The notes beneath the pieces are model-generated. The model made no database searches. It saw nothing but the letters and a program-made list of their open reading frames with translations, and was not told the origin of the DNA. From the NCBI RefSeq assembly GCF_900091595.1, contig NZ_FMCW01000032.1:1-64000 (forward strand): DNA of 64,000 bases, in the 5' to 3' direction. Shown here piece after piece: positions 4,436-50,450 of this stretch. The DNA is from Micromonospora haikouensis. GTDB taxonomy: Bacteria; Actinomycetota; Actinomycetes; Mycobacteriales; Micromonosporaceae. A program made the translations under genes and the position numbers. The stretch's first letter is position 1. The number at the start of each line of letters is the position of its first letter.

Positions 4436-4438
4436 GGG

Positions 4439-14090: not shown

Positions 14091-14137
14091 TGACCCTGCC
14101 CCTGGTCCAGGCCCCGGCCGGCCCTGCTTCACGCTGA
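14089..14137 (+). pseudogene. Possible 5' stub of a lost cmtR-linked transporter gene
   Basis: The cmtR stop overlaps an ATG at 14089 (TGATG), a typical translational coupling, but the frame ends after 15 codons (MTLPLVQAPAGPASR). Metal-efflux genes such as cation diffusion facilitators often follow cmtR-like genes. The stub is too short for homology, so this rests on context only. Confidence 0.3.
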
Positions 14138-14173
14138 GCTGCCTGAGCGCGGGCCGCGGACCTGGCGCAGCAG

Positions 14174-14995: not shown

Positions 14996-15014
14996 CGGGG
15001 CAGGCCGGGTGTGC

Positions 15015-15584: not shown

Positions 15585-15671
15585 CTGCTTCTCCTCGTGT
15601 CTGGTGGCGGTGAGGCGGACGCGATCCAATCCGATCCGATTGGGCTAGCATTCCCCTGCCCCGCCCGCCCG

Positions 15672-16415: not shown

Positions 16416-16797
16416 CGTGACGTGAGGTCCTTTCCTGCATCTTCGGGAACCTGTTGACACCAGTCACCACGCTGCGACATGCTGACGCCCCGCTCGATCG
16501 TATAGGAAATCCGACGAGCGCCCGTCATTCTGCACCGCCGGAACCACCTGCCACCGCTCCACTCGATCACCTGACGCTCCCACGAGCATGCTCGACACCC
16601 CTCCCCGGTCGTCACCGGCCCGGACGGGTCGAAGGGCCGCTCGACGGCGCGCGGACCCGGCGCGTCCCGGCGCGCTCGCGACGCCGACCCCCGCGGGTCG
16701 GCCCCGCGACAGCCCGGCAACACGCCTGAACGACCGGCACCTGCTCGGCGAAGCACCTAGCGAGGCTCCACACCCCCACCAGAAAGCAGGCCAGAAG
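16416..16797. promoter_or_regulatory. Divergent intergenic region with gntR promoter
   Basis: This 382-nt gap between gntR and the ABC importer holds no convincing gene. On the - strand TGACGG (16527-16522), 17 bp, TATACG (16504-16499) is a good promoter for gntR. The GATCGTATAGG sequence at 16496-16506 over the -10 box resembles half of a FadR-type GTnnnAC operator. A + strand TTGACA at 16454 lacks a matching -10 box, so the importer promoter is not located. Confidence 0.4.
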
Positions 16798-35388: not shown

Positions 35389-37284
35389 TCAGAGACCGGC
35401 CGCGTGGGCGGCGGTGGTGCCGCCGACCACCGGAAGAACGATCTTGCTGCTCTTCAGGGCGACGTTGATGTTCGCGGCGGTGGTGTCCGCCTGGCTGGAG
35501 TACTGCGGGTAGCTGGCCACGATGATCACGCCGATCCGGTGGCCCGGCTTGAAGACGTAGTCCTCCGGCAGCAGCGGGAAGGTGAAGTTGTACGACTCCC
35601 CCACCACCAGCGGCACGGCGGTGCGGATGGACTGCCGGTTCTGGGCGTCCATGATGCCCTTGGTGACCAGCTCGTAGTCGGCCGTGGCGACCCGCTTGGC
35701 GGTCTGCTTGTAGCAGCCGTCGTCGGTCGGGCTGTTCAGCCCCCAGCAGTCCTCGGTGGCCAGGGTGATGATGCCCTCGCCGGAGGCCCGGTGCGCCACC
35801 CGCTCGTCGGTGCCGTAGTCGACCAGGATCGCCCCGAAGTTGGTGTCGGTCTGGTCGGCCGAGGCCCGCAGCTGCACCGTCGGCGTGCCCGAGATGTGCA
35901 GGGGCGCGGTCAGCGGCGCGGACAGGAACGCCAGCCGGTTCGGCTGCACCGTGTCCGGGTTGAGGATCATCGTGTTCTGGCTCTGGGTGCGGCTGTCCTG
36001 GAACGCGCCGGTCGCCGGCTTGGCGGTCGGCACCAGCTTCAGGCCGCCGGCCCCGGTGGTGCCGGGCTGGAGGAACACCTCGGTGTCGGCCTTGCCGGGG
36101 ATCGGCCAGTCGGCATGGGTCTCCCACACGTCGGCGGCCCGCTCCAGGTCGACCCGGGGCTCGTCCATGATCCCGTTGGCCACCCCGTGCAGCCAGAAGT
36201 CGAACCACCGGTGCAGGGTGGACACCCAGACCGCGCGGCGCGAGTCGAACGGGTCGACGTGCCCCTCCTGGGAGAGCCACAGCTTGCGCGGGATGTTGTT
36301 CTCCGCCAGGGCATACCAGAACTTGCTGAAGTGGTCCGGGCGGACGTTGTCGTCGTTGAGACCGTGGTAGAGCAGCACGCTGGCGGTCATGTTGGGGACC
36401 TTCTTGACGTAGCTGCGCTCGTTCCAGAAGGCGGTGTAGTCGCCGTGCTCGTCGCCGTCGGCGGCGGCCATCGCGTCGCGCACCGGCTTGCAGTAGTCCC
36501 GCCGCTCCGGGTTGGTGACCGTGTTGGCCAGCGACGCCACGTAGCTGTTGCCCCGGGTGACCACCCCGTTGCTGCGCACGTAGTCGTAGTACTCGGTGGG
36601 GCCGCTGATCGGCACCACCGTGGTCAGGCCCTTGACGCCGGTCACCGCCGTCGCCATGGCCAGCGAGCCGTCGTACGACTTGCCGATCATGCCCGACTTG
36701 CCGTTGTGCCAGTCGGCGGTGACCACCTGGCCGGCCGCGTTGCGCGCGGTGGCCCGGCCGTTGAGCCAGTTGATCGCCTGCTTGGCGCTGAGATTGTCCT
36801 GGTTGGCGTTGGTGGTGGGGCAGCCGGTGGAGTTGTTGGTGCCCACCATGTCCAGCAGGATCACCGCGTAGCCGCGCGGCACGAAGTAGTTGTCGTAGAA
36901 CAGCGGCCACCTGTCGAGCAGGCCGTCGCCGTCCAGGTCGGCCTTGCACTCGGACTCGTTGCCCCGGCAGACCGTCGAGTAGTAGGGGCTGGCGTCCATG
37001 ATGACCGGCACCTTGAGCCCGTTCGCGGTGGCCGCCGGTCGCATCAGGTCGAACGCGATGATGTCGCGCAGACCGTCGTTGTCGCTGTCGAAGGTGGAGT
37101 CGATGAACAGGCGTTCCCGGATGGCGTCGGCGTAGCCGAACACCGGCTGGGTGACCCCGTCCTGGACCACGATCGCCGGTGCGTCCGACGCCGCCACCGC
37201 CCGTGGCGCCGCGCCCAGGGCGGCGAGCAGCACCGCGGCCAGTACGGCCGCCCCGGCGCGAAGGGGTGTTCCCGTTGCAGCCAT
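35389..37284 (-). CDS. Secreted Xaa-Pro dipeptidyl-peptidase (S15)
   Basis: A 631-residue exported serine peptidase releasing X-Pro dipeptides. Signal peptide about 1-31. The CocE/PepX alpha/beta-hydrolase core begins near residue 60 (IIAFDLMRP, VIMDASPYY). The nucleophile Ser is in GMIGKSYDGSLAMA; Asp in YHGLNDDNV; His in SQEGHVDPF. The C-terminal jelly-roll domain carries TPTVQLRASADQTDTNFG. ATG 37284 follows AAGGAG at good distance. Actinobacterial relatives are secreted S15 prolyl peptidases. Monocistronic with its own terminator. Confidence 0.9.
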   Translation of the reverse strand: MAATGTPLRAGAAVLAAVLLAALGAAPRAVAASDAPAIVVQDGVTQPVFGYADAIRERLFIDSTFDSDNDGLRDIIAFDLMRPAATANGLKVPVIMDASPYYSTVCRGNESECKADLDGDGLLDRWPLFYDNYFVPRGYAVILLDMVGTNNSTGCPTTNANQDNLSAKQAINWLNGRATARNAAGQVVTADWHNGKSGMIGKSYDGSLAMATAVTGVKGLTTVVPISGPTEYYDYVRSNGVVTRGNSYVASLANTVTNPERRDYCKPVRDAMAAADGDEHGDYTAFWNERSYVKKVPNMTASVLLYHGLNDDNVRPDHFSKFWYALAENNIPRKLWLSQEGHVDPFDSRRAVWVSTLHRWFDFWLHGVANGIMDEPRVDLERAADVWETHADWPIPGKADTEVFLQPGTTGAGGLKLVPTAKPATGAFQDSRTQSQNTMILNPDTVQPNRLAFLSAPLTAPLHISGTPTVQLRASADQTDTNFGAILVDYGTDERVAHRASGEGIITLATEDCWGLNSPTDDGCYKQTAKRVATADYELVTKGIMDAQNRQSIRTAVPLVVGESYNFTFPLLPEDYVFKPGHRIGVIIVASYPQYSSQADTTAANINVALKSSKIVLPVVGGTTAAHAAGL

Positions 37285-37421: not shown

Positions 37422-38333
37422 TCAGTCCCGGTAGCCCCACTGCCGCAGCGGCTTGTCCAGCACCCGTTCCACGGCGGCGAGCTGCGCGTCGCCCAACTCC
37501 TCGTGGTAGGCGGCCTGCCGACCGGCGTGGAACCGGTACCGCCCGAAGCCCTTCTCGAACGCCGGCGACCAGTCCAGGTCGAGGAAGTCGAGCATCCGGG
37601 CCACCTCGCCGCGCGGGTCGGCGAGCAGGTCCTCGTAGCGCACGTCGAGCCACTGCGCCTCGGGGTGCGCCGCGCGGGCCTCGGCGAAGGAGTCCATCAG
37701 CATCTTCCAGCCCAGCGCGGCGAGCACCGGGAACGACCTGTCGTACTCCTCCCATTCCCGGCGCAGATCGGTCGGCAGTGGGCCGAGGAACCAGTTGTCC
37801 GGCCCTCGCCAGCCGTCCCACCAGCCCATCTGGAGCCAGGAGTTGGTCACCGCCCGGCCGTCGCGGACCACGTTGACCACCCGCAGCTCCGGGTAGCCGG
37901 CCCGCAGGAACCCGGTCCTCGGCCAACCGGTCACGTGGTGCAGCAGCAGCCGGCAGCCCTGCCGGGCGATCCGGGCGTCGAAGAAGGCGCGCAGCCGCCG
38001 CCGCAGGTACGGGGTGAGATCCTCGGCGGTCAGGTCCCGGCACGGGCGGGAGAACCCGGCAAGCACGTGCCGGTCCAGCAGGTGGTACGCCTCCGACGGG
38101 GCGACCCGCAGCCGGCCCTTCTCCAGCAACCGGCGGCTGTGCCGCAGCGAGGTCATCCCCGCCGGGCGGGGCGCGGAGCGCCGGTACAGCGGGCCGTTGA
38201 GCCGGCCGGTCAGGTTGAGCCGGGACAGCTTGTCGTCGACACCGGAGACGAACCCGACCCCGGGGTGCCGGGACAGCAGCTCCTGCACCAGGGTCGACCC
38301 GCACCGCCCGGTGCCCACCACCACCGCCAACAT
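37422..38333 (-). CDS. Sulfotransferase 1
   Basis: A 303-residue PAPS-dependent sulfotransferase-like protein. The 5'-phosphosulfate loop is GTGRCGSTLV (7-16) and the 3'-phosphate motif is VVNVVRDGRAVTNSW. No signal or membrane segment, so it should act in the cytoplasm, probably on lipid-linked or nucleotide-linked sugars. Starts 3 nt after the end of sulfotransferase 2 and is last in the leftward unit glycosyltransferase - sulfotransferase 2 - sulfotransferase 1. Acceptor unknown. Confidence 0.88.
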   Translation of the reverse strand: MLAVVVGTGRCGSTLVQELLSRHPGVGFVSGVDDKLSRLNLTGRLNGPLYRRSAPRPAGMTSLRHSRRLLEKGRLRVAPSEAYHLLDRHVLAGFSRPCRDLTAEDLTPYLRRRLRAFFDARIARQGCRLLLHHVTGWPRTGFLRAGYPELRVVNVVRDGRAVTNSWLQMGWWDGWRGPDNWFLGPLPTDLRREWEEYDRSFPVLAALGWKMLMDSFAEARAAHPEAQWLDVRYEDLLADPRGEVARMLDFLDLDWSPAFEKGFGRYRFHAGRQAAYHEELGDAQLAAVERVLDKPLRQWGYRD

Positions 38334-38336
38334 CGC

Positions 38337-39392
38337 TCAGCCCTCCTCGTGCCGGGCCGGCCCCGACCGCCCGACGCCCACCGGCCGCCCACCGGCCGCA
38401 GCCGGCCCACCCTGCGCGGGCCGCCCGTCGCCCGCCGACCGGTCGGCCCCCGCCGGGCCCGGGGCACCCCGCCGCCACGGGTAGCCGAACCGGCGCAGCC
38501 CCGCCGCGGTCAGCACGGTGACCAGCGCGTACGACCAGCGGGACAGGTCACGCCGCCACTGCACGTCGGCGGTGATCGGCACCGGACCGGTCCGGTGCCG
38601 GGACGGGTTGCCGGCCACCGAGTGCGTCGGCGTCAGCCGGACCGTCGCCGGGCCGGTGAACGGGCCCCCGTCGGGGTCGACCCCGGCGAAGTCGGCGATC
38701 CGGCGCAGCGTCGGCTCCGGGTCGGCGGTCAGGTCCTCGTAGCGCACCCGCAGGTAGCCCCCCGGGGCACTGTCACCCCACAGCCGGACGGTCACGGTGT
38801 TCCACACCAGCCAGAGCAGGGCCGCCTTCCATGCCGGCGGCCGGCTCATCAGCTCCGGATCGGTGTCGCCGTCGAGCCCCCGGCGACGACGCCAGGAGAA
38901 GGCGGTGGCCCGGGGGTCGCGGACCAGGTGCAGCACCCGCAGGTCGATGCCGGGCAGCGCGCCGACCAACGCGCCGTACGGGGGCAGCTTCGACGAGTCG
39001 ACCACCACCCGGGCCCCGGTGTGCCGGGCCACGGCCGCGTACAGGTCGGCCAGCGCCGCGTCGTCGGGATGCGCGGGCACCGGCCGGACCCCCCGCCGGT
39101 GGCGACGCAGCAGCGCCGGCAGCCCGCGCATCCGCAGCCGGCCCCGCAGTCCGGCGGCGATCGTGGCGGCCCGCTCCACCGGCAGTTCCCGGGCCACCGC
39201 GCGCCACAGCGGGCAGTCCCGCAGCGGCCGGCCGCAGCCGCACGGCCGGTTCTCCACCTCGCCGCGCTGCCACAGGTAGCGCAGCTCCCCGGCGGCGAAG
39301 ACCCCGTCGTACTGCCCGAGGACGGTGGTGACCAGGGTGCTGCCGCTGCGTCCGCTGCCGGCCAGGTAGAGGACCCGCACCGGCGGGTTCAC
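38337..39392 (-). CDS. Sulfotransferase 2 with cysteine cluster
   Basis: A 351-residue sulfotransferase. PAPS loop GSGRSGSTLV (12-21), 3'-phosphate motif LHLVRDPRATAFSW, and a conserved Cys group CGCGRPLRDCPLW soon after the loop, which is typical of one sulfotransferase subfamily and may bind metal. The C-terminal 40 residues are Gly/Pro/Arg-rich and probably disordered. GTG at 39392 overlaps the glycosyltransferase stop by 4 nt, so translation is coupled. Confidence 0.88.
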   Translation of the reverse strand: MNPPVRVLYLAGSGRSGSTLVTTVLGQYDGVFAAGELRYLWQRGEVENRPCGCGRPLRDCPLWRAVARELPVERAATIAAGLRGRLRMRGLPALLRRHRRGVRPVPAHPDDAALADLYAAVARHTGARVVVDSSKLPPYGALVGALPGIDLRVLHLVRDPRATAFSWRRRRGLDGDTDPELMSRPPAWKAALLWLVWNTVTVRLWGDSAPGGYLRVRYEDLTADPEPTLRRIADFAGVDPDGGPFTGPATVRLTPTHSVAGNPSRHRTGPVPITADVQWRRDLSRWSYALVTVLTAAGLRRFGYPWRRGAPGPAGADRSAGDGRPAQGGPAAAGGRPVGVGRSGPARHEEG

Positions 39393-40633
39393 ACCGGCTC
39401 CCGCACGGTCCGCGCGGCGGTCGCGTAGACCTCCCGCAACCGGGTCAGGTGCGCCTGCGGGGAGAAGTCCCGCTCCACCCGCGCCCGGCCGGCCCGCCCC
39501 ATCCGGTACGCCCGCGCCGGGTCGGCGAGCACCCGGGCCAGCCCGGCGGCCAGCGCGACCGGATCGTCGGCGGGCACCACCTCGCCGTCCACGCCGGCGG
39601 TGACCAGCTCGGGCAGCCCGCCCAGGTCGGAGGCGACCACCGGCACCCCGCAGCCGTACGCCTCCAGCACCGCCATCGGCTGGTTCTCGTTCCACCGGGA
39701 CGGCACCGCCACCACCGTGGCGGAGCGGACCAGCTCGTGCAGCCGGGCCTTGTCCAGCCGGCCGTGGAACCGGACCCGGCCGGGGGCCCGCCGCCGGGCC
39801 AGCTCGGTCAGCCCGTCGCGGGCCGGGCCGTCCCCGGCCACCTCCAGCACGACGTCGTCGGGCAGTCGGGTGAGCGCCTCGATGAGCACGTCGACGCCCT
39901 TCTCCGGGGCCAGCCGGCCGGCGAAGACCACCGGCCCGCCGGGGGCCGCCTTCACCGCCGTCGCGGCGACGTCGACGAAGTGCGACACCACGTGCATCCG
40001 GTCGGGGAAGACACCGGCCCGGCGCATCACGTCGGCCAGGAACCGGCTGGGGCTGACGAACGCCTGCACCGGCCCGTACGCCCGGGTGGTGCGGTGCAGC
40101 CAGGACTCGACGGCCAGCAGCGAGCTGGCCCCGAACGATCCGTCCTTGCAGCGGCGACGGGCCGCGCGCAGCGGACCGCCGGTCACGCAGGCGTCGCAGA
40201 CCGCCCCCCGGTCGAGCATCTGGTAGCTGGGGCAGGCCAGCTTGTAGTCGTGCAGGGTCATCACCGCCGGCACCCGGGCGGCCCGCACCGCCGCCAGCAC
40301 CGACGGGGAGAGCTGGTGGTAGATGTTGTGCAGGTGGACCACGTCGGGTCGGAACTCGTCGAGCACCCGGGCCAGGCCACGCCGGCTGGCCGGCGACCAG
40401 ATCATCCGGGCCGCCACCGCCGCCCGGGGGCCCGCGCCGCGCGGCGCCGGGTCCAGCTCCACCCGGGGCGGGAAGTGCCGGGCGTACGGGGTGGGGGCGT
40501 CGTTGTCCGGGTGGGTCATGCCAAAGAAGGCCACCTCGTCGCCGTCGCCCCGTTGCAGCTCGGCGACGTCGAGCAGGTAACCCTCGGCGCCGCCGCGCCG
40601 GTAGAGGAACTTGTTGACATGGAGGACACGCAT
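39389..40633 (-). CDS. GT4 glycosyltransferase
   Basis: A 414-residue GT-B retaining glycosyltransferase starting at ATG 40633 (GGAGCGGG upstream). N-terminal acceptor domain: HVNKFLYRRGGAEGYLLDVA. Between domains lies a cysteine group (KLACPSYQM, VCDACVTG, RRRCKDGS) seen in a GT4 subgroup and likely to bind zinc. C-terminal donor domain: FAGRLAPEKGVDVLIEAL and the nucleotide-sugar motif ENQPMAVLEAYGCGVPVVAS. It probably adds a sugar to the polyprenyl-linked repeat unit. First gene of the leftward three-gene unit. Confidence 0.9.
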   Translation of the reverse strand: MRVLHVNKFLYRRGGAEGYLLDVAELQRGDGDEVAFFGMTHPDNDAPTPYARHFPPRVELDPAPRGAGPRAAVAARMIWSPASRRGLARVLDEFRPDVVHLHNIYHQLSPSVLAAVRAARVPAVMTLHDYKLACPSYQMLDRGAVCDACVTGGPLRAARRRCKDGSFGASSLLAVESWLHRTTRAYGPVQAFVSPSRFLADVMRRAGVFPDRMHVVSHFVDVAATAVKAAPGGPVVFAGRLAPEKGVDVLIEALTRLPDDVVLEVAGDGPARDGLTELARRRAPGRVRFHGRLDKARLHELVRSATVVAVPSRWNENQPMAVLEAYGCGVPVVASDLGGLPELVTAGVDGEVVPADDPVALAAGLARVLADPARAYRMGRAGRARVERDFSPQAHLTRLREVYATAARTVREPV

Positions 40634-40768
40634 CGGCCCGCTCCGGGGGTGGCTGCTGCGGTTCGTCGGGGTCCAGGGGTGGGGTGGTCGCCCCGGACGG
40701 CAGCGGTGACCAGGGGCCCCACCGTATGCACCAGCCACGTCGTGAGTCCAGCTCATGATCCCCAAGCT

Positions 40769-40811
40769 GACCACACGGCCCATCGCCGGTCGACCACACG
40801 GCCACGTGGCC
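40769..40811. promoter_or_regulatory. Direct repeats and palindrome in the divergent sulfation promoter region
   Basis: GACCACACGGCC occurs twice (40769-40780 and 40792-40803), 23 bp apart start to start, about two helical turns. The second copy overlaps the perfect palindrome GGCCACGTGGCC (40800-40811). It lies between the divergently read glycosyltransferase and sulfotransferase 3 genes and could coordinate both arms. No regulator gene is nearby. Confidence 0.5.
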
Positions 40812-40872
40812 ACCCGTGATGATCTGCCGGTACCGTGTGCCCCACCCCGCCTGACGTGCCCGAGGAGGACCG

Positions 40873-41808
40873 GTGCCCCACCCCGACGAGCCCTCGGCGC
40901 TGGCGTACACCGCCCGACGGGTCCGCCGGCACCTGCGCTGGGCGCGCACCGAGGGCGTCCGGCGGCTGATCGAGGAGGACCGGCTCGACCCGGTCGACCG
41001 GGCCCGCACCGCGCTGGCGAAGTGGCGCTGGCGGCGGGCCCATCCCGGGCCGCCCGGCCGGGCCGTCCCGGTCTACCTGGTGGGCCTGCAACGCTCCGGC
41101 ACCAACATGCTGACCCGGGGGCTGGACGCCGACCCGTCGGTGGAGGTCCGCAACGAGAACGACCGGGCCGTGTTCCACCGCTTCCGGTTGCGCCCCGACC
41201 CGGTGCTCGGCGCCGTCATCCGCCGCAGCCGGCACCGGTACGTGCTGGTCAAGCCGCTGTGCGACACGCACCGGGTGGACGAGTTGCTCGGCCTGGCCGG
41301 GGTCGCGCCGGGGCGGGCGCTGTGGGCGTACCGGGACGTCGACGACCGGGCCCGCTCCGAGGTGGCGAAGTTCGGCGACGCCAACCTGCGGGCGCTGCGG
41401 GCGATCGCCGACGGCACGATCGGGGACCGCTGGCAGGGGCAGCGCCTGGACGCGCCGATGCGGGACCTGGTCGCCGGCTTCGACTACGACCGGATGACCC
41501 CGCACACCGCCGCCGCCCTGTTCTGGTACGTGCGCAACTCGTTGTACTTCTCCCTCGGGCTGGCCGACCGCCCGGACACCCTGCTCTGCTCGTACGACCT
41601 GCTGGTCGCCGACCCGGCGGGGTCCACCCGGCGGCTGTGCGCCTTCCTCGACCTGCCGTACGACCCGGTGCTGCACGCGCACGTCGGCGCGCGCACCCCG
41701 GCGCGGCCCCGGCTGGAGATCGACGCCCGGGTACGGGCGCTCTGCACCACCCTGGCCGGGCGGCTGGACGCGGCGGCCGGCCGGCAGGAGGCGGTGGACC
41801 ATGGCTGA
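40873..41808 (+). CDS. Sulfotransferase 3
   Basis: A 311-residue sulfotransferase-fold protein with a basic N-terminal extension of about 65 residues. PAPS loop VGLQRSGTNMLTRGLD begins near residue 69. The 3'-phosphate region is unusual: WAYRDVDDRARSEV replaces the usual xxxRDPRxxxxS, keeping Arg-Asp. GTG 40873 has GAGGAGG 5 nt upstream. It overlaps the next sulfotransferase gene by 8 nt. Of the five it is the least certain in activity. Confidence 0.8.
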   Translation: MPHPDEPSALAYTARRVRRHLRWARTEGVRRLIEEDRLDPVDRARTALAKWRWRRAHPGPPGRAVPVYLVGLQRSGTNMLTRGLDADPSVEVRNENDRAVFHRFRLRPDPVLGAVIRRSRHRYVLVKPLCDTHRVDELLGLAGVAPGRALWAYRDVDDRARSEVAKFGDANLRALRAIADGTIGDRWQGQRLDAPMRDLVAGFDYDRMTPHTAAALFWYVRNSLYFSLGLADRPDTLLCSYDLLVADPAGSTRRLCAFLDLPYDPVLHAHVGARTPARPRLEIDARVRALCTTLAGRLDAAAGRQEAVDHG

Positions 41809-42601
41809 ACCGCACACCCCGGCGGCGCGGACGGGGGCGGCCCGGGGGCCGATCTTCCTGGTCGGCTGCCAGCGGTCCGGCACCACGATGCTGCGGCTGG
41901 TGCTCGACTCGCACTCCCGGGTCAGCTGCGGCCCGGAGACCCGGTTCCTGGCCGACATGCAACGCATCGTCGGGCGGGACTGGGAGCGGCTGGCCCGCTT
42001 CGGGTTCCCCCGGGAATACTGGCTGGGCCGCATCGCCGACTTCTTCGGCGGCATCCAGGCCGACTACGCCCGGTCCCGGGGAAAGACCCGCTGGGCCGAC
42101 AAGACGCCGCTCTACGCGCTGTCCATCGACTTCCTGGCCGAGGTCTTCCCCGACGCGCAGTTCGTGCACGTCGTGCGGGACGGCCGGGACGTGGTGGTGT
42201 CGCACCGCAAGCGGTTCGGCTACTGGTCGGCGGTGAAGTGCGTGGTGAAGTGGCCGCGCTACATCCGCATCGCCCGCGCCTCCGGGGCCCGGCTGCCGGC
42301 CGACCGCTACCACGAACTGCGCTACGAGGAGACGGTCACCGACCCGGAGAAGGCCATGCGGGGCCTGTTCGAGTTCCTCGGCGAACCCTGGGAGGCGGGC
42401 GTGCTCGACTACGACGGCAAGCAGCACGACGTGGCGGGCAAGTACACCGCCGAGGCGGATCGTCGGCGGGCCGCCGCCGGCACCGACGCCCCGATCTACG
42501 GCTCCCGGGTCGGCACCTACCGCCGGGAACTGGACCCCTTCCTGCGGGTGCTGGTCCGGATCTTCTCCGGTGCCACCCTGCGCGAACTGGGCTACCGGTG
42601 A
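41801..42601 (+). CDS. Sulfotransferase 4
   Basis: A 266-residue sulfotransferase with clean motifs: PAPS loop VGCQRSGTTMLRLVLDSH (21-38), 3'-phosphate motif VVRDGRDVVVSHRKR, and the late RYEETVTDPEKAMRGLFEFL segment common to the family. Cytoplasmic. Overlaps sulfotransferase 3 by 8 nt and the glycoside hydrolase gene by 4 nt (GTGA). Confidence 0.9.
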   Translation: MAEPHTPAARTGAARGPIFLVGCQRSGTTMLRLVLDSHSRVSCGPETRFLADMQRIVGRDWERLARFGFPREYWLGRIADFFGGIQADYARSRGKTRWADKTPLYALSIDFLAEVFPDAQFVHVVRDGRDVVVSHRKRFGYWSAVKCVVKWPRYIRIARASGARLPADRYHELRYEETVTDPEKAMRGLFEFLGEPWEAGVLDYDGKQHDVAGKYTAEADRRRAAAGTDAPIYGSRVGTYRRELDPFLRVLVRIFSGATLRELGYR

Positions 42602-44082
42602 GCCGCCGGACCGGGCGGCCGGTGCTGCTCGCCGGGGTGCTGCTGGCCGCCCTGGTCGCCGGGGCGGCCTGTTCGGACGAGCCCGCCCCCCGCCCGGCCC
42701 CGTCGGCGACCGGCCCGTCGGCGGCCACCCCGTCGGCCGGTGCCACCGGCGCGCCACCGGCCGGCGCGACGGCCCGCAACCCGTTCGGCGCGCACTGGGA
42801 CTGGTCCCGCTACGACCAGTTCGTGCCCTACCTGGAGAAGCTCTCCGGCTCGGCGACCTACCACGAGCTGAGCTGGTGCGACATCGAGAAGACCCAGGGC
42901 AGCCCGGACTTCTCGGCGGTGGACCGGATCGCCGAGCGCAGCCGGCAGCTCGGCATCACCCTGCACCTGAAGATCCGCACCGGGGTCTGCTGGGCCACCG
43001 GCGGGACGGCGAAGTTCACCCGGGGGCAGGCCAACAAGACCGAGTCGGCGATACCCCGGGACCTCGCCGCCTACCAGGCGTTCGTCCGCGCCCTGGTGCA
43101 GCGGTACGCCCCGTACGGGGTCCGCGAGTACGCCATCGAGAACGAGGTCAACGCGCAGCAGTACTGGGCGGGCAGCCCCGAGGACTACCGCCGGCTGGTC
43201 ACCGCCGCCGCCGAGGCGATCCGGTCGGCCGACCCGCAGGCCACGGTGGTCGACTCGGGCATGAGCAGCGTGGCGTACGGAATGGGGGTGGCCGACCGGC
43301 TGCTGCGGGCCGGGCAGCCGGACCAGGCCGTTGCCGCCTACCAGGCGTACTTCCAGCGGCGGGTCGGCACCCGGGGGCGGCTGATTCCGGCGGTCGCCGA
43401 CCCGACGGCGTTGCGCGCAGCGCTGGACAACACGCAGAACTCCCGCAACCTGGCCTACCTGGCGGTCACCGAGAAGCTGCTCGACGACCGGGTGGTCGAC
43501 GTCCGGCAACTGCACTTCTACGAGCACTTCTCCGGGGTGCCGGCGCTGCTGGACTACCTGCGCGCGGAGACCCCGGCCGGGGTGCCGGTGCAGGCGTGGG
43601 AGGTCGGCCAGTTCTGGAAGGACGGCGCGGACGACGCCGCGGCCCGGGGCGACGAGATGGTCAAGGTGGTCAGTCTGCTGGTCGCCGGGGGCATCCACGA
43701 GGTGCTCTGGCTGCCGCTGGCGTACAACCCCGACAACCGGGCCGGCGCGGAGGTCCGCTACGGCCTGCTCGACCCGGACGGCACCCAGCGGCAGGCCGGC
43801 GCGATGCTGGCCGCCCTGGCGGCGGCGGCCCGGGACGCGACCGTCGAGCCCGTGAACGCCAAGGGGCTGACCGGGGTGGCGTTCCGCCGGGGTGCGGAGA
43901 GCACCCTGGTGGTCTGGTCGACCACCGGGGGCACCGTGTCGCTGCCGGCCACCGCCGGGGTGACCGGCGGCCCGGTCGGTGCCGACCCGGCCGCCCGCAC
44001 CGGCGCGCTGCCGATCGGGCCGAGCCCGGTGCTGCTGCGCGCGAACGGCGACCCGGCCGGCGTCCTCGCCCCGATCCGCTGA
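42598..44082 (+). CDS. Lipoprotein glycoside hydrolase, PslG/GH39-like clan A fold
   Basis: A 494-residue lipoprotein. Lipobox AGAAC with Cys25, then a Pro/Ala/Thr linker to residue 60. A (beta/alpha)8 barrel follows: NPFGAHWDW, LHLKIRTGV, acid/base Glu183 after Asn182 (YAIENEVN), and nucleophile Glu335 (VQAWEVGQFW). The clan A pattern and context recall PslG, the GH39 endoglycosidase encoded in the Pseudomonas Psl polysaccharide cluster. It may trim or release the polymer at the cell surface. Translationally coupled to sulfotransferase 4. Its stop is 12 nt from that of the convergent sulfotransferase 5 gene. Confidence 0.82.
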   Translation: MSRRTGRPVLLAGVLLAALVAGAACSDEPAPRPAPSATGPSAATPSAGATGAPPAGATARNPFGAHWDWSRYDQFVPYLEKLSGSATYHELSWCDIEKTQGSPDFSAVDRIAERSRQLGITLHLKIRTGVCWATGGTAKFTRGQANKTESAIPRDLAAYQAFVRALVQRYAPYGVREYAIENEVNAQQYWAGSPEDYRRLVTAAAEAIRSADPQATVVDSGMSSVAYGMGVADRLLRAGQPDQAVAAYQAYFQRRVGTRGRLIPAVADPTALRAALDNTQNSRNLAYLAVTEKLLDDRVVDVRQLHFYEHFSGVPALLDYLRAETPAGVPVQAWEVGQFWKDGADDAAARGDEMVKVVSLLVAGGIHEVLWLPLAYNPDNRAGAEVRYGLLDPDGTQRQAGAMLAALAAAARDATVEPVNAKGLTGVAFRRGAESTLVVWSTTGGTVSLPATAGVTGGPVGADPAARTGALPIGPSPVLLRANGDPAGVLAPIR

Positions 44083-44094
44083 CGCGGTGGCCGT

Positions 44095-44940
44095 TCACCA
44101 GGTGCGGGACCAGCCGAGCAGGGCGGCGAGGCGGGCGTTGTGCGGGGCGAACCCGGCGGACAGCTCGGCCCGCAACTCGGCGGTGAGCTGGGACGGGCCG
44201 GTGTCCGCCCGGCGGGTGTGCCGGGCGAACTCCGCCGGGGCGTACGGGGCCAGCCCGAGGAACCGCAGCACGCCCGCGTAGGCGGTCGCCGGGTCGGCGT
44301 ACAGGTCCTCGCTGCGGATCACGTGCAGCCGTTCGGCGGGCAGGTGGGCGTACCAGCGGTCGAGCTGCTCGGCGTAGCGGCCCCGGGCGGCGTAGGAGAA
44401 GTTGCGCAGCGCGTGGTGGGCCGCCGGGGTGTCCGGCCCGTCGGCCAGCGCTGCGTCCAGCCGCCCCGGCTCGGCGGCGAGCGCCTCGGCGAAGCCCAAC
44501 GGCTCCAGCCCGTACGAGCGGGTGTGCAGGTAGTGCGAGTAGGCCCGCTCGACCGGGTCGCGCAGCAGCGCCACGAACCGGGCCTCGGGCAGCGTCGCCG
44601 CCACCCGGGCCGGCACGCCGGGGTGGAAAAGGTAGTAGGGGCTGGCCTCGAAGCTGCGTCGGCCGGGGGCGGCCGGTGGGAAGTGCGCCCGGTACCAGCG
44701 CGGCCCTCGACCGTAGTGCAGGCTGAAGAACTGGAGTTCCTTGCCGGTGGCGGCCCGCACGTCGGGGTGCGCGGCGAGGTAGTGGTGCAGCGAGGTGGTG
44801 CCGCACCGCTGCCCGCCGATGATCAGGAAATCGGGCAGCGCGCCGACCGCGCCGGGCCGCGCCGCCCGCGCCCAGGCGCGGGTGCCGCGTACCATCCGGC
44901 GCAGTCGGTCCACGGTGGCCCGCCGCGGCCCCGCGCTCAC
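44095..44940 (-). CDS. Sulfotransferase 5, heparan-sulfate type
   Basis: A 281-residue sulfotransferase of the PF00685 type used for heparan sulfate and related glycans. PAPS loop FLIIGGQRCGTTSLHHYL (38-55), then KELQFFS and the 3'-phosphate motif FVALLRDPVERAYSHYLH. The GKELQFF segment contains the lysine and glutamate positions expected for the catalytic site. GTG 44940 overlaps the flippase stop by 4 nt, tying sulfation to the polysaccharide-export unit. Confidence 0.92.
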   Translation of the reverse strand: MSAGPRRATVDRLRRMVRGTRAWARAARPGAVGALPDFLIIGGQRCGTTSLHHYLAAHPDVRAATGKELQFFSLHYGRGPRWYRAHFPPAAPGRRSFEASPYYLFHPGVPARVAATLPEARFVALLRDPVERAYSHYLHTRSYGLEPLGFAEALAAEPGRLDAALADGPDTPAAHHALRNFSYAARGRYAEQLDRWYAHLPAERLHVIRSEDLYADPATAYAGVLRFLGLAPYAPAEFARHTRRADTGPSQLTAELRAELSAGFAPHNARLAALLGWSRTW

Positions 44941-46505
44941 CGCGACACCGCCCGGCCGGCCTCGTCGACGACCGGGGCGGGACCGTCCCCGGCGGCGTCG
45001 GGCGGGCCGCCGCGACGGCGTCGGCGGGCCAGGGTGCGCAGCACCATCACGTCCTCCCGGCTGAGGCCCAGTGCCAGCACGGTCCCCAGGTAGACGGCCA
45101 CGATCGCGGTCAGCCCGGCGGCCGGCCGCCCCGGCCAGCCCGGCACCAGCCAGCGCACCAGCAGCCCGGCGAGCAGCGCGGCCACCCCGGCGGCCAGCCC
45201 CTTGGCCATCCCGACGGTGAACGGCAGCGCGCCGGTCAGGTGGCGGACCTGCACCACCCGGGCGACGTTGACCACGATCAGCGAGGCGCTCCACGCCGCC
45301 GCCGCGCCGACGATCCCGTACGCCGGGATGAGCCACAGGTTGAGCAGCACGTTGAGCAGCAGGGCGGCCAGGTTGTCGGCCATGTTGAGGGCCACCCGGC
45401 CGGACATGTTCAGCACCGTGCCACACGGGCCGGTGGCCGCGTTGACCAGCTGGCCGAGGGCGAGGATCACGGTCACCGCCGCGCCGGTGGCGACCTCGCC
45501 GCCGAAGACGCGCAGCAGGTCGCCGGGGAGGACCAGCAGCGCCACGAACGCCGGCAGCGACAGCCGGACGACCCAGCCGGTGGCCACCGCGTAGACCCGG
45601 CGGACGTCGTCGAGGTCCCCCCGGTGGTGGAGGTGCGCCAGGTACGGCCCGAACGCGGCGTTGACCGGCGCGAGGACGAAGATGGCGACGGTGACCAGCC
45701 GGGTGGCGACGTTGTAGACGCCGATGTCCGGGTTGGCGAAGAAGCCGAGCAGCAGGGTGTCGACCCAGATCAGCCCGGTCGACGACAGCGACGACACCCA
45801 GCTGACCGTGGAGAAGCGGAACAGCTCCCCCGGCCGGTGCACCGGGCGGGCCGGCGGCACCCGGCGCACCATCCGGCCCAACGCCAGCAGGGCGAGCAGG
45901 GCGGCCGACCAGCCGGCCACCACCAGCGCCCAGAAGGCCCCGGTCAGCCCCACCCCGGTGCCCAGGGCGAGCGCGGTGAGCAGCAGTCGGGCGCCCGGCT
46001 CGTAGAGCTGGCCGATGAAGGTGAACGGCCGCTGGGTACGCCAGCCCCGGGTCGCCGCGAGGGCCGCCTCGCAGACCGTCGAGGCGGGCAGGGTGAGCGC
46101 GACCAGCCGCAGGCCGGTGACCAGCCCCGGGTCGTGCAGCCGGTCGGCGAGCCAGGGCGCGCCCGCCGCCAGCGCCCCGGCGAGGACGACCGACGAGCCG
46201 GCCGAGACGGCCAGTCCCAACCGGATGGTGCCGCGCAGCGCCGGGGCGTCCGCGTCGGCCAGGTGCACCGCCACGAACCGGGTGAGGCCGGCCCGGAACC
46301 CGGACAGCGACAGCAGCCCGGCCAGCGACAGCACCGCGTAGCACTGGGCGTACCGGCCGACCTCCCGGATGCCCAGCACCCGCGCCAGCAGCAGCATGAT
46401 CAGGAAGACCGCCGCCTGGCTGAGCAGGGCGCCGAGCAGGTTGAGCCCGCCGCCCCGGGCCATTCCCCGGACGTGCTGGTCGCCCCGCGCGGACCCTTCC
46501 GGCAC
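44937..46505 (-). CDS. Wzx-like polysaccharide flippase (MOP superfamily)
   Basis: A 522-residue membrane protein with 12-14 predicted helices, beginning GLNLLGALLSQAAVFLIMLL. It has the MOP-superfamily layout (RYAQCYAVLSLAGLLSLSGF; ATRLVTVAIFVLAPV; LNVLLNLWLIPAYGIVGAA) of Wzx O-antigen and capsule flippases. It should move the lipid-linked repeat unit across the membrane. GTG 46505 lies 6 nt after the chain-length gene. The C-terminal tail after residue 490 is charged and cytosolic. Confidence 0.88.
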   Translation of the reverse strand: MPEGSARGDQHVRGMARGGGLNLLGALLSQAAVFLIMLLLARVLGIREVGRYAQCYAVLSLAGLLSLSGFRAGLTRFVAVHLADADAPALRGTIRLGLAVSAGSSVVLAGALAAGAPWLADRLHDPGLVTGLRLVALTLPASTVCEAALAATRGWRTQRPFTFIGQLYEPGARLLLTALALGTGVGLTGAFWALVVAGWSAALLALLALGRMVRRVPPARPVHRPGELFRFSTVSWVSSLSSTGLIWVDTLLLGFFANPDIGVYNVATRLVTVAIFVLAPVNAAFGPYLAHLHHRGDLDDVRRVYAVATGWVVRLSLPAFVALLVLPGDLLRVFGGEVATGAAVTVILALGQLVNAATGPCGTVLNMSGRVALNMADNLAALLLNVLLNLWLIPAYGIVGAAAAWSASLIVVNVARVVQVRHLTGALPFTVGMAKGLAAGVAALLAGLLVRWLVPGWPGRPAAGLTAIVAVYLGTVLALGLSREDVMVLRTLARRRRRGGPPDAAGDGPAPVVDEAGRAVSR

Positions 46506-46511
46506 CCCCGC

Positions 46512-47597
46512 CTACCGGTGCCGGGAGTTCTGCTCGGGCACGGTCGCCGTGACGGCCGGCAGCACCACCGTGTCGTCGCTGCCGCGCCCCCCACCGGCCG
46601 GAGCCGCCCGACCGACGGCCGACGGCTGGCCGGCCCGGCGGCTGCGCGACAGCCACTCCAGCACCGCGACCAGGAGCACGGCCAGCAGCAGGCCGGCGCC
46701 GAGCACCGGGAGCACCAGGCCGACCAACGCCTTCACCCGGGACACCGGCTGCACCTCGCCGACGCTGGTCACCTTCTCCGGGTCGGCGGCCTGGGACTGG
46801 GCGCGGGCCTGTTGCAGCCGCTGCCGGGCCGAGGCCAACGCGCTGGCGGCGCTGTCCCGTTGCGCGATCAGCGCCTGGTAGTCGGGCAGCTTCGGGCCGA
46901 GCCCGTCGAGCCGCTTCTGCCCGGCGCTGATCGACTCGGCGGCGGCGTCGGCCCCCCGGGAGTTGCCGACCGCCTGCATCTGCAACTGCTGCTGCCGCAG
47001 GCTGGCGATCTCCTGGAGGGTCGACTGGTAGAGCTTGTCCGGCTGGCTGACCTTGTTGGCCTTCTCCCAGTCGTTGATCGCCCGGGTGGCGGTGGTCAGC
47101 TCGTCGGTGGCCGTCTTCACCTCGTCGGTGGCGATGCCGACCTGGCTGGCGAAGAGGAAGGCCAGGGCCCGCTTGCCGGTCGAGGCGAGCACCGGGTCGA
47201 CCGTGGACCGGTCGGCGGCGGTGTAGGTCACGGTGAGCTGGCTGCTCGCGCCGACCTGCTTGACCGCCAGCCCGCCGCGCAGCGTGTCGGCGGGCACCCC
47301 GGTGTCGGCCGCCACCTGGTCGACCACCTGCGGGGAGGTCACCGCCGCGGCGAAGGCCGCCGCGAACTGGTTGGCCGCCTGGGTGCCGGTGTACTGCTGG
47401 GCCGCGCTGCCGCCGACCAGGGCGGGCGCGGCGACGTACGAGGTGGCCGCGTACTGCTGCGGGCCGAGCAGGACGACCAGCGCGGCCGCCGCCCCGGCCA
47501 CCAGCGGAATGCCCACCAGCAGCCAGAGTCGACGCCGCGCGACCCGCAGATAGTCGACGATCTCCACCCTGCCGCTCCCCACTGCTCGTTGCTTCAT
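46512..47597 (-). CDS. Wzz-like chain-length / polysaccharide co-polymerase
   Basis: A 361-residue protein with two membrane helices (about 23-44 and 290-318) around a long coiled, Ala/Gln-rich extracytoplasmic part (LASARQRLQQARAQSQAA; SLRQQQLQMQAV). The N-terminus VEIVDYLRVARRRLWLL is the Wzz/CpsC pattern. There is no fused tyrosine kinase domain and none beside it, only a short cytosolic tail, so regulation by BY-kinase would need a partner elsewhere. ATG 47597 overlaps the ligase stop (ATGA). Confidence 0.85.
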   Translation of the reverse strand: MKQRAVGSGRVEIVDYLRVARRRLWLLVGIPLVAGAAAALVVLLGPQQYAATSYVAAPALVGGSAAQQYTGTQAANQFAAAFAAAVTSPQVVDQVAADTGVPADTLRGGLAVKQVGASSQLTVTYTAADRSTVDPVLASTGKRALAFLFASQVGIATDEVKTATDELTTATRAINDWEKANKVSQPDKLYQSTLQEIASLRQQQLQMQAVGNSRGADAAAESISAGQKRLDGLGPKLPDYQALIAQRDSAASALASARQRLQQARAQSQAADPEKVTSVGEVQPVSRVKALVGLVLPVLGAGLLLAVLLVAVLEWLSRSRRAGQPSAVGRAAPAGGGRGSDDTVVLPAVTATVPEQNSRHR

Positions 47598-49093
47598 CGG
47601 TTGTGCCACCCGGTGCCCACCGGTCGGGGCGTCGCCACCCGGGTCGGCTCGGCCGGTAGCCCCCGGGCGACCGCGCCGGCTGCCGCGGCGAACGCCGCGA
47701 AGTACCACAGGGTCACCACGTTCGAGATCACGTTGGACGCCGCGCTGACCGCGACGAAGGCGACCGCGCAGCCCAGGAAACCGATCGCGATCCCCCGGCC
47801 GAGGCTCCCCGGTGGGGCCCGGCGCAGCGCGTTCAGCCCGGTGTGCAGACACAGCGCCAGCATCGCCAGGTACGCCAGCAGCCCGGCCAGCCCGGTCTCC
47901 ACGTACGCGCGCAGGAAGTCGTTGTGTGGCTTCTTCGCCTCGTCGGCCTCGAACTTGGTCATGTTGGGGCCGATCCCGGTGACCGGGTTGCGGTTGGCCA
48001 GCGACACGATCTCCGACCAGTAGCCGACCCGCCAGGCGAGGGTGTTGCCGGTCGGGCCGCCGCCCACGGCGGTGCTGTCGGCGAGCTGCCCGAAGCGGTG
48101 CGCCACGCTCGGCAGCAGGGCCACCCCGGCCACCGCGACCAGGCAGAGCGCCACCAGCATCCGCCGGCTGCGGTGCAGCACCGCCACCACCAGCAGGCCC
48201 AGTCCCGCGCCGAGGATCGCGCTGCGGGTGTTGGTGAGCAGCAGGAACAGCAACGACGCGGCGAGCAACGCGCCGAGGCCGAGCCGGAGCCGGCGGCTCA
48301 GGTAGCGGTAGATGCCGAACCCGAAGATCACCATGAACATCAGGTAGCGGCCGAAGGTGGTGGACTGGCCGAACGGCCCGCTGATCCGGGTGAAGCCCCC
48401 CTTGACCTCGGCCGGTGGGTGGCCGAGCAGGGACAGCACGACGGTGTAGCCGACCGCCAGCGCCAGCGAGGCGTACGCGGCGAGCAGCACCCGGCGGACC
48501 GCCGGCAGGTCCGGCATCAGTTGCTCCAGGACCACGAACATCACCACCACGGTGCCGATCCGCAGCGACTCCAGGGCGCTGGGCACCGGCTGGGCGGCCC
48601 CCGCCGCGCTGACCAGGGAGGTGGCCCCGACCAGCAGCATCGCCACGCCGAGCGGCGAGCCGCGCAGCCGGCCCCGCTGGCGCAGCTGGGCGGCGAGCCA
48701 GAGCCCGGCGGCGAGCAGGAACAGCACCGCGAGGATCGTCGACGGATCCATCGCCCGGGTCGCCGCCGCGCCGTCGGCCCGGCCGGCCGTCGGGCCGCTG
48801 AGCTTGAACAGGTCGACGCAGGAGCGGACCGCCAGCATCAGCAGCACGTACGCCGCGAACCGGGTCAGCGCGAGCACGCCGACGGCCAGCCCGGCGAGGA
48901 CCGCCAGGGGCAGCACCGCGCCGACCCGGCCGCCACCGGTGGCGGCCAACCCGACGGCGACCGCCGCCACGGCGCAGAGCAGGGCCGCGCCGACGGTCAG
49001 CAGGCGGGCGGTCGGATCACCGGCGGCCCACCGGCGCCGCCCGTCGGCGGGCAGGGCGAGGTCACTCTCCGTGCCGTGTCGCTGTCCGTCCAC
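47594..49093 (-). CDS. O-antigen ligase / polymerase (WaaL/Wzy-like) membrane protein
   Basis: A 499-residue polytopic protein with about 12 helices, a Wzy_C-type signature in the large loop (TGIGPNM, then KKPHNDFLRAYVETGLAG) and conserved Arg in LTNTRSAILGAG. In Gram-positive polysaccharide clusters such proteins polymerise the repeat unit on the outer face of the membrane. Start GTG 49093. It lies 64 nt after the GT4 gene and overlaps the chain-length gene by 4 nt. Confidence 0.85.
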   Translation of the reverse strand: MDGQRHGTESDLALPADGRRRWAAGDPTARLLTVGAALLCAVAAVAVGLAATGGGRVGAVLPLAVLAGLAVGVLALTRFAAYVLLMLAVRSCVDLFKLSGPTAGRADGAAATRAMDPSTILAVLFLLAAGLWLAAQLRQRGRLRGSPLGVAMLLVGATSLVSAAGAAQPVPSALESLRIGTVVVMFVVLEQLMPDLPAVRRVLLAAYASLALAVGYTVVLSLLGHPPAEVKGGFTRISGPFGQSTTFGRYLMFMVIFGFGIYRYLSRRLRLGLGALLAASLLFLLLTNTRSAILGAGLGLLVVAVLHRSRRMLVALCLVAVAGVALLPSVAHRFGQLADSTAVGGGPTGNTLAWRVGYWSEIVSLANRNPVTGIGPNMTKFEADEAKKPHNDFLRAYVETGLAGLLAYLAMLALCLHTGLNALRRAPPGSLGRGIAIGFLGCAVAFVAVSAASNVISNVVTLWYFAAFAAAAGAVARGLPAEPTRVATPRPVGTGWHNR

Positions 49094-49157
49094 CGCTCGC
49101 CGACCACTCGTTTCCAGGGAACTGTTGCCGGTCGCCGCCGACGGCCGGAAGGACGGC

Positions 49158-50450
49158 CTAATCTAACGGTCGCCGAGGTCGGGAGACATGGGCCGTTACG
49201 CCGACCGTGGGCGACCCAACGTCCGGTTCCCCCCGGCGGGGGGCGCGCAGAGCCAGCGAGAAGTAGAGTTCCTCCAGCTCACGGGCGGCGGCGTCCCAGC
49301 TGTACTCGGCGAGCACCCGGTCCCGCAGCAGCGCGGCGCCGGCCCGTTCGGCAGGCAGGTCGGCGGTCACCGTGTGCAACGCGCGGCGCAGGTCGTCGAC
49401 GTCGCCGTCGCGGAACAGCCGCTGCCCCGGGCCGTCGCGGTCGAGCATCTCGCGGTGGGGTTCGATGTCGCTGGCCACCACCGGCAGGCCGTACGAGGCG
49501 GCCTCCAGCACGGTCAGCGGCAGCCCCTCCAGGCGGGACGGCTGCACGAAGGCCGCCGCGTGCGAGTACAGCTCGGCCAGCACGTCGCCGTAGACGAAGT
49601 CGGTGAACACGATGCGCGGGTCGTCACCGGCGGCGGCGCGGAGCTGGGCGACGTACCCGTCGGTGAAGGCCGAACCGCCGACGATGGCCAGCCGCAGGTC
49701 GGTCGGCAGCTGACGGAACGCCCGCACGAGCAGGTCGGCGGCCTTCTCCGGGACGAGCCGGCCGACCAGCAGCAGATAGTTGCCGGGGCGCAGGCCGAAC
49801 CGGGACAGTTCCCGGGGCGGCAGGTGGGTGGGGGCGACCACCCCGTTGGGGATGTAGCGGGCGGGCCGGCCGAACCGGCTGGCGTAGTGCGCGGCCAGGC
49901 CCCGCGACACGGTCACCCGGGCGTCGGGCAGGTGCCCGCTGAGCCGGTACGCGGTGCCGAGCACGGCCCGCGCCGCCCGGCCCCACTTGTCGCGCTGGTT
50001 GTCCAGCCCGTGCACGGTGAGCACCACCCGGGCCCGGGAGGCGTACCGGGCCAGCGGCGCGGTCAGCACCGGGCCGAGGCCGTGGTAATGCACGATGTCG
50101 GGGCGCTCGGCCAGCGCCGCCACGGTGGAGGTGGCCGAGTGCACGATGGCGTCGAGGTGCTTGCTGGACACGGTGCGGGCCCGCCGTAACCGGATGCCCC
50201 GGTGCCGGGTCTCCTCGACCGCGCCGTAGCTGTCCCGGCAGTAGACGGTCACCTCGTGGCCGAGGCCGGCCAGCCGGCTGGCCATCTCCTCGACGTGCCG
50301 TTCGATCCCCCCGTAGGTGGCCGGCACGCCCTTCTGGCCGATCATCGCCACCCGCAGGGGACGCCAGCCCGGCGGGCAGGTCACGCCCGGCCCCGGGCGG
50401 TCGGGGCGAGGCTGTCCCCCTCGGTCGGCGGCATCGTTACGGAACGGCAC
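49158..50450 (-). CDS. GT4 glycosyltransferase, rhamnosyltransferase-like
   Basis: A 430-residue GT-B enzyme. The acceptor domain begins VAMIGQKGVPATYGGIERHV, a hallmark of GT4 enzymes in capsule and O-antigen clusters, some of which transfer rhamnose. Donor domain: LLLVGRLVPEKAADLLVRAF and SRLEGLPLTVLEAASYGLPV. Start GTG 50450 with AGGGGGG 4 nt ahead; the first 30 residues have no homology and the true start could be slightly downstream. Head of the leftward export unit. Confidence 0.9.
   Translation of the reverse strand: MPFRNDAADRGGQPRPDRPGPGVTCPPGWRPLRVAMIGQKGVPATYGGIERHVEEMASRLAGLGHEVTVYCRDSYGAVEETRHRGIRLRRARTVSSKHLDAIVHSATSTVAALAERPDIVHYHGLGPVLTAPLARYASRARVVLTVHGLDNQRDKWGRAARAVLGTAYRLSGHLPDARVTVSRGLAAHYASRFGRPARYIPNGVVAPTHLPPRELSRFGLRPGNYLLLVGRLVPEKAADLLVRAFRQLPTDLRLAIVGGSAFTDGYVAQLRAAAGDDPRIVFTDFVYGDVLAELYSHAAAFVQPSRLEGLPLTVLEAASYGLPVVASDIEPHREMLDRDGPGQRLFRDGDVDDLRRALHTVTADLPAERAGAALLRDRVLAEYSWDAAARELEELYFSLALRAPRRGEPDVGSPTVGVTAHVSRPRRPLD

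Follow-up and report, generated by a model that had tools for sequence, protein, structure and literature searches.

An eleven-gene locus with five sulfotransferases in Micromonospora haikouensis, predicted to produce an exported sulfated polysaccharide

Gene content and organization of the locus

Eleven genes at positions 37422-50450 of a 64,000-nucleotide stretch of the Micromonospora haikouensis genome (contig NZ_FMCW01000032.1; the whole stretch is referred to as the window) were analyzed as a candidate pathway for an exported sulfated polysaccharide. Genes were called with a codon-model caller and domains were assigned with Pfam. The products were five sulfotransferases of the type that uses 3'-phosphoadenosine 5'-phosphosulfate (PAPS), here named ST-A to ST-E, two GT4-type glycosyltransferases (GT4a and GT4b), a Wzx-type flippase, a Wzz-type chain length protein, a Wzy_C family membrane protein, and a lipoprotein-like hydrolase (Table 1). 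The genes were packed into three arms: GT4a, ST-B, and ST-A were transcribed leftward from the middle of the locus, ST-C, ST-D, and the hydrolase rightward, and GT4b, Wzy_C, Wzz, Wzx, and ST-E leftward. By coordinates, ST-B overlapped GT4a by 4 nucleotides (nt), ST-C overlapped ST-D by 8 nt, and ST-E overlapped Wzx by 4 nt. An original prediction, made from the sequence of the window, had described five distinct sulfotransferase genes with two GT4 genes and genes for Wzx-, Wzz-, and Wzy/WaaL-like proteins in three packed arms, with overlaps of 4-8 nt, one of them between a sulfotransferase gene and the flippase gene; the gene calls, coordinates, and Pfam matches agreed with it on each of these points.

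Table 1. Features of the sulfotransferase locus (positions within the window; aa, amino acids)
Feature	Position	Strand	Evidence
ST-A sulfotransferase, 303 aa	37422..38333	-	PF13469 81.9 bits
ST-B sulfotransferase, 351 aa	38337..39392	-	PF13469 53 bits
GT4a, GT4-type glycosyltransferase, 414 aa	39389..40633	-	PF00534 120 bits, PF13439 65 bits
Divergent intergenic region GT4a/ST-C	40634..40872	.	sequence
ST-C sulfotransferase, 311 aa, most divergent	40873..41808	+	PF13469 43.3 bits
ST-D sulfotransferase, 266 aa	41801..42601	+	PF13469 142 bits
Glycoside hydrolase-like lipoprotein	42598..44082	+	494 aa from GTG 42598, 486 aa from 42622
ST-E, heparan-sulfate-sulfotransferase-like, 281 aa	44095..44940	-	Pfam and PDB matches
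Wzx-type flippase, 522 aa	44937..46505	-	PF01943 75.7 bits
Wzz-type chain length protein, 351 aa	46512..47567	-	PF02706 30.8 bits, cut-off 25.5
Wzy_C / O-antigen-ligase family membrane protein, 499 aa	47594..49093	-	PF04932 74.2 bits
GT4b, GT4-type glycosyltransferase, 430 aa (397 aa from inner start)	49158..50450	-	

The five sulfotransferases

All five sulfotransferases passed the cut-off of PF13469, and four of the five also passed that of PF00685, against which ST-C scored 18.9 bits with a cut-off of 22. The profile search that had been proposed with the original prediction thus placed each protein in a sulfotransferase family, ST-C by PF13469 alone. There were eight matches to PF00685 in the whole 7.58-Mb genome, four of them inside the locus. 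Because half of these matches lay here, and because the eleven genes recurred at 54-85% identity in other genera, the locus does not appear to be a chance grouping.

Each sulfotransferase contained a glycine-rich 5' loop and an RD-containing 3' motif that were kept in 46-50 aligned sequences, window copies included, after exclusion of copies that contained a stop or had coverage of 80% or less. The loops were distinct: GTGRCGS in ST-A (with RDGRAV, 48 sequences), GRSGSTL in ST-B (with VRDPR, 46 sequences), and VGLQRSGTNML in ST-C (with DRARSEV, 48 sequences). Pairwise identity among the five did not exceed about 31% in aligned stretches of at least 100 residues, so recent duplication of one sulfotransferase was rejected; judged by sequence, the five represent different lineages, not copies of one. 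None had a membrane span by a simple count.

Comparison with the PDB separated the proteins further. The 14 matches of ST-E were an uncharacterized bacterial sulfotransferase (3rnl, 1.2e-26) and 13 heparan sulfate sulfotransferase sequences, with values of 3e-24 to 2e-17 against 3-O- and N-sulfotransferases. By these matches, ST-E resembles glycan sulfotransferases. The best match of ST-B was the sulfotransferase domain of a polyketide synthase (1.6e-11), and this protein was also 36-37% identical to two sulfotransferases encoded in a second locus of the same genome, on contig C18 (see below). ST-C had no match among PDB sequences at an E value of 0.1.

The hydrolase and the export proteins

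The hydrolase was 98% identical to proteins annotated as from M. haikouensis, and its Pfam matches were all below the cut-offs. An AlphaFold model built from a 40-sequence alignment had a mean predicted local distance difference test (pLDDT) score of 87.6, and the best three PDB folds found with Foldseek were all PslG (E values 3e-21 to 1e-20; query template modeling score 0.59-0.60), followed by GH39 enzymes. A search of the PDB with the hydrolase profile gave weak matches to a GH39 xylosidase (4.8e-4) and to PslG (3.8e-3). Two glutamates, E183 in an NE motif after N182 and E335, were invariant in 40 of 40 sequences and would form the catalytic pair, which we take to be like that of retaining clan GH-A enzymes. 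The consensus also contained a lipobox-like LAGC. The modeled fold is PslG-like, and this model and the lipobox agree with the glycoside hydrolase lipoprotein of the original prediction. The Psl exopolysaccharide cluster of Pseudomonas aeruginosa encodes PslG, an endo-beta-glucanase (PMC11912335), and the window locus is like psl in having a putative glycosidase encoded within a polysaccharide cluster. The window hydrolase is unlike PslG in sequence, with only 17-18% identity. We know of no sulfotransferases in the Psl cluster.

The flippase was assigned by PF01943 and the chain length protein by PF02706; Pfam found no kinase domain in the latter. The Wzy_C protein, in which a simple count gave roughly 12 hydrophobic spans, is a probable polymerase.

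Conservation and co-inheritance of the locus

Homologs of Wzz, ST-A, ST-D, and ST-E were searched for in the same 200 genomes of the Micromonosporaceae, from 44 genera. Carriers of Wzz numbered 29, spread over 10 of the 44 genera. ST-A was found in 30, namely the 29 Wzz carriers and one further genome (G180), and ST-E at 64% identity or more had this same distribution. ST-D at 73% identity or more was found in the same 29 genomes; the next best match was 41% identical, and at the search threshold there were matches in 84 genomes. A weaker relative of ST-E was nearly universal, with any match in 183 genomes, mostly at 41-50% among the matches listed. ST-A and Wzz were absent together from 170 of the 200 genomes. 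Within the genus, Wzx at 73% identity or more was found in 28 of 151 genomes (the M. haikouensis genome included, and one of the 28 being a fragment at a contig end), and the other matches were 32-35% identical.

The neighborhood search suggested with the original prediction was carried out by tblastn of the fetched regions (identity of at least 50%, any coverage), and 47 of the 48 other genomes examined that carried the core had the full set of eleven genes. In the sole exception the contig, of 9.8 kb, ends. Coverage of the query was 42% for ST-A in G093 and 51% for GT4a in G205, and six aligned stretches contained a stop (ST-B of G049 and G271; GT4b of G110, G122, and G256; Wzx of G134), either because the alignment may run beyond the end of the gene or because these copies may be broken. 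Two carriers in the genus, G028 (contig edge) and G052 (fragment), were left out of this count, and loci from copies of genomes already counted (L051-L056, and L057, a copy of G271) were counted once. The set was inherited nearly all-or-none across ten genera. A variable capsule locus with exchangeable genes was rejected, since the same eleven genes recur.

The locus consists of two modules, an assembly module (ST-A, ST-B, GT4a / ST-C, ST-D, hydrolase) and an export module (ST-E, Wzx, Wzz, Wzy, GT4b). All 40 distinct genomes that were mapped (M. haikouensis among them) kept the order of the export module, with Wzz adjoining Wzy_C in each; two of the 40 had two extra open reading frames between Wzy and GT4b. 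Outside Micromonospora the modules were often apart, with other genes between them and different genes flanking them. The distance between Wzz and ST-A was 17-47 kb in six genomes measured, and in G224 and G312 each module was on its own contig, so that the contig break hides the real distance. Trees of the two modules, inferred without support values and compared over their 46 shared taxa (the export tree had 49), gave patristic distances with a correlation of r = 0.98, a value that is inflated by the kinship of the genomes and that shows shared history, not function. In both trees the Micromonospora copies fell into two distinct clades, one of them next to genus g10. That ST-A and Wzz were absent from the same genomes is a stronger fact than the tree correlation.

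Beyond the family, ST-A had a match in 10 of 396 genomes of the phylum, two of them Micromonospora, and a protein search with ST-A found metagenome bins of Nocardioidaceae and Propionicimonas at 67-68% identity. Relatives of ST-A, ST-E, GT4a, and Wzx adjoined one another, at 43-55% identity, on short contigs of small-genome actinobacteria of one genus (L117 and L119; L117 also had a relative of ST-B), a group that may represent the pathway in reduced form.

A predicted pathway for a sulfated polysaccharide

Because the presence patterns matched over the same 200 genomes, and because the two modules were co-inherited though unlinked, the eleven genes probably constitute a single Wzx/Wzy-type pathway that makes and exports a multiply sulfated polysaccharide, with sulfation in the cytosol before flipping. 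We infer the sulfated product from the genes. Its prediction as a multiply sulfated exopolysaccharide thus gained genetic support, from co-inheritance, from the heparan-type matches of ST-E, and from the PslG-like fold. The sulfotransferases appear to be tied to the export genes because they are inherited as a unit with them even where unlinked, which speaks against the possibility, raised with the original prediction, that they are unrelated to the export genes. A small-metabolite cluster was disfavored: Pfam identified no core biosynthetic enzyme among the eleven genes, and the flanks change between genera.

Apart from the inflation of the tree correlation, several observations weigh against a single pathway of this kind. 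Five sulfotransferases to two linked glycosyltransferases is a lopsided ratio, and some of the enzymes may use other acceptors. The locus contained no initiating transferase of PF02397, and three were found elsewhere in the genome; all 50 genomes checked (28 carriers of the set and 22 non-carriers) had at least three each, and since non-carriers had the family just as often (22 of 22), finding it in carriers is no more than permissive. There were no PAPS-making genes or APS (adenosine 5'-phosphosulfate) kinase gene within the locus, and the genome's only APS kinase match was on contig C32. PAPS synthesis genes have been termed a hallmark of sulfated-polysaccharide clusters (PMC11641403); the available description of the synechan cluster likewise lists none (PMC8205485). 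Genome G180 had relatives of ST-A and ST-E without the remaining set, and in six genomes of two genera an ST-E-like copy (65-72%) was located apart from the export module, which suggests that ST-E-type enzymes can serve elsewhere. ST-A had short and weak PDB sequence matches, and its model (mean pLDDT 81.0), which had a sulfotransferase fold, returned tyrosylprotein sulfotransferases at the top of the fold search. The nearest solved relatives of ST-D were also protein-tyrosine sulfotransferases (up to 2e-18, seven of ten PDB matches). Finally, PF04932, the family of the Wzy_C protein, holds polymerases and ligases alike and does not separate them.

The matches of ST-A and ST-D raise the possibility that only some of the sulfotransferases, ST-E and perhaps ST-B, act on polysaccharide, and that other members, ST-D among them, sulfate protein or peptide components of the same extracellular matrix; that the five are not recent duplicates of each other is also compatible with such a division of labor. 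We consider this rather unlikely. The co-inheritance of ST-A and ST-D with Wzz was as tight as that of the export genes themselves, and no secreted protein substrate common to all loci was noticed, the hydrolase aside, in analyses that included no search aimed at one, although an S15 peptidase gene flanks some of the loci. The ambiguity of PF04932 bears on another alternative, that the Wzy_C protein is a ligase and the product a short sulfated glycolipid or lipid-linked oligosaccharide, a reading favored by the presence of only two linked glycosyltransferases. Sulfated lipids are made by actinobacteria. This alternative seems highly unlikely, however, given the Wzz chain length protein beside Wzy_C in every genome mapped and the PslG-like hydrolase, which suggests a polymer.

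For the predicted polysaccharide, a six-step pathway can be proposed. A PF02397 phosphoglycosyltransferase encoded elsewhere would prime undecaprenyl phosphate, and GT4a and GT4b would extend a short repeat, of about three sugars by gene count. ST-A to ST-E, whose family is established by Pfam, would then sulfate the lipid-linked unit from PAPS in the cytosol. Wzx would flip the sulfated unit, and ST-E perhaps acts last among the sulfotransferases because its gene overlaps that of Wzx by 4 nt in a fixed order. The Wzy_C protein, consistent with its family, would polymerize the unit under the control of Wzz, and outside the membrane the lipoprotein, with its PslG-like fold, may trim or release chains. 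A tentative extension of this pathway, which we regard as possible but doubtful, is a heparin-like, very highly sulfated exopolysaccharide with up to five sulfates per repeat of about three sugars, one added by each sulfotransferase before Wzx, and with a flippase or polymerase that accepts only the fully sulfated unit. If true, such a scheme would account for the retention of all five enzymes alongside the export genes across ten genera, even where the two modules are unlinked.

Comparison with known systems and with a second locus

The original prediction had also held that no system of this composition was described. For Micromonospora this stood, in that titles and abstract openings of the papers listed, which included few subscription papers, described no sulfated polysaccharide biosynthesis; for the family it did not, since the wps-1 system of Actinoplanes missouriensis, published in June 2026, has two sulfotransferases (PMC13390465). 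In addition to these, wps-1 encodes Wzx, Wzy, Wzz, GT2, GT26, and GH26 proteins, a methyltransferase, and a kinase-like protein, and its deletion led to distorted sporangia and no spore release; deletion of a nearby sulfate adenylyltransferase/APS kinase-type gene also harmed sporangia. A sulfated polysaccharide was predicted, and the authors state that sulfation awaits proof (PMC13390465). The window set is like wps-1 (PMC13390465) in carrying Wzx, Wzy, and Wzz alongside sulfotransferases and a glycoside hydrolase, and unlike it in having five sulfotransferases, two GT4 proteins, and a PslG-like hydrolase. By Pfam, the eleven genes did not include the wps-1 combination of GT2 and GT26, GH26, methyltransferase, kinase-like protein, and two sulfotransferases.

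A second locus in the same genome (L050, contig C18:31000-50900, at 2465-16941) encoded, in order, a Wzz-like protein, DUF3048, Wzy_C, an unassigned protein of 413 aa, a sulfotransferase, Wzx, and a GH26-like protein, with the Wzz-like and GH26-like proteins just below Pfam cut-offs. One GT2 gene and the two ST-B-like sulfotransferase genes were near this run. The order recalls the wps-1 order WpsK, J, I, H, G, E (PMC13390465). The C18 locus differs from wps-1 in having three sulfotransferases instead of two, and no GT26 or methyltransferase was found by Pfam in the ten of its 17 called genes that were scanned. From the published description of wps-1, we tentatively regard the C18 locus as wps-1-like. 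The distant Wzx adjoined the C18-type ST-E-like gene in nine genomes, those for which both places were listed (M. haikouensis, G009, G021, G033, G053, G073, G098, G135, and G142), and relatives of the C18 sulfotransferase appear to be in nearly all of the family genomes searched.

The eleven genes could themselves be the sporangium-matrix system wps-1 in another gene order, as both have the same kinds of parts, Wzx, Wzy, and Wzz together with sulfotransferases and a hydrolase (PMC13390465), and ST-E and Wzx have relatives at 41% and 35% identity in the C18 locus. We consider this extremely improbable, because the separate C18 locus is closer to wps-1 in order and parts, because the window set differs in having GT4 instead of GT2 and GT26, in hydrolase family, and in sulfotransferase number, and because C18-type sulfotransferases are far more common (any match in 183 of 200 genomes) than the window set (29 of 200). 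With a separate wps-1-like locus in the genome, the window locus would therefore be a second, rarer, and more sulfotransferase-rich system. The set is unusual in its ratio of five sulfotransferases to two glycosyltransferases and in its near all-or-none inheritance, within a kind of system already known from wps-1.

The xss cluster of Synechocystis 6803 is also of the Wzx/Wzy type with sulfotransferases, and its product, synechan, was chemically shown to contain sulfate (PMC8205485). It has two sulfotransferases and eight glycosyltransferases, counts that roughly fit two sulfates per eight sugars (PMC8205485), whereas the window set has five sulfotransferases to two linked glycosyltransferases. 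Vibrio sp. KMM 8419, which has a sulfated capsule of known structure, also has sulfotransferase genes in its polysaccharide locus; this Gram-negative locus differs from the window set in its ABC-transporter export and PAPS-making genes (PMC11641403).

Bacterial sulfated polysaccharides are credited mainly to cyanobacteria (PMC8205485, PMC13390465), and marine proteobacterial examples exist too (PMC11641403). If the proposed pathway is correct, a conserved actinobacterial system with five sulfotransferases would widen the known makers of these polymers, would provide a compact source of glycan sulfotransferases from different lineages, and would offer a deletable system for studying possible reasons for the sulfation of surface polymers by actinomycetes during development. 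From the gene counts, a ratio of sulfate to sugar can be predicted and put to the test; were the synechan count rule to hold, the polymer would be predicted to be far more sulfated than synechan.

Additional features of the locus and its neighborhood

The aligned ends of GT4a and ST-C were 222-325 nt apart in 39 of the 46 loci that carried both genes together, and this divergent region probably holds regulatory sites for both arms. A scan of the intergenic region for the sigma-70 consensus found no match, and a promoter and terminator scan found nothing that exceeded shuffled sequences. Among ten proteins (all but GT4b) scanned against NCBIfam, no listed match was over the cut-off, the list for GT4a being the best 25 of 35. 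The caller placed the start of GT4b at 50351, and the GTG at 50450 is preceded by a better ribosome-site-like sequence, which in our reading suggests that the longer form is preferable; the shorter form matched PF13692 (92 bits) and PF13439 (88 bits). GT4b contained two TTA codons, a codon present in just one further gene called in the window. Control by bldA through these codons was not supported, as TTA was present in GT4b of only 12 of 48 relatives, near codon 395-396 in eight (close Micromonospora) and at codon 55 in two.

An ACP (acyl carrier protein) synthase III-type gene at 31498-32541 lay outside the eleven-gene set. The S15-family peptidase gene was at 35389-37233, and its relatives (76-83%) were also found beside the assembly module at 6 of the 13 loci outside Micromonospora that bear the arm (L092-L097). 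In 12 of 20 family-wide loci (L068-L074, L077, L078, L083, L085, L086) the export module was followed by a conserved run encoding a polyprenyl synthase, a type I phosphodiesterase, a TIM barrel protein (missing in L074), a TatD-like hydrolase, an unassigned protein, and mostly a further TIM barrel protein, a run reminiscent of the Ebo cluster. A relative of ST-E (67%) directly followed a series of genes sized like this Ebo-like cluster in L098 (G180) and L109 (G256), and the stretches fetched for these two loci contained no Wzx of the window type. In L036 and L037 (G116 and G012), two genes, one for a PP2C-type phosphatase and one whose helix-turn-helix-like matches were under Pfam cut-offs, were located between the middle and right arms, that is, between the hydrolase and ST-E.

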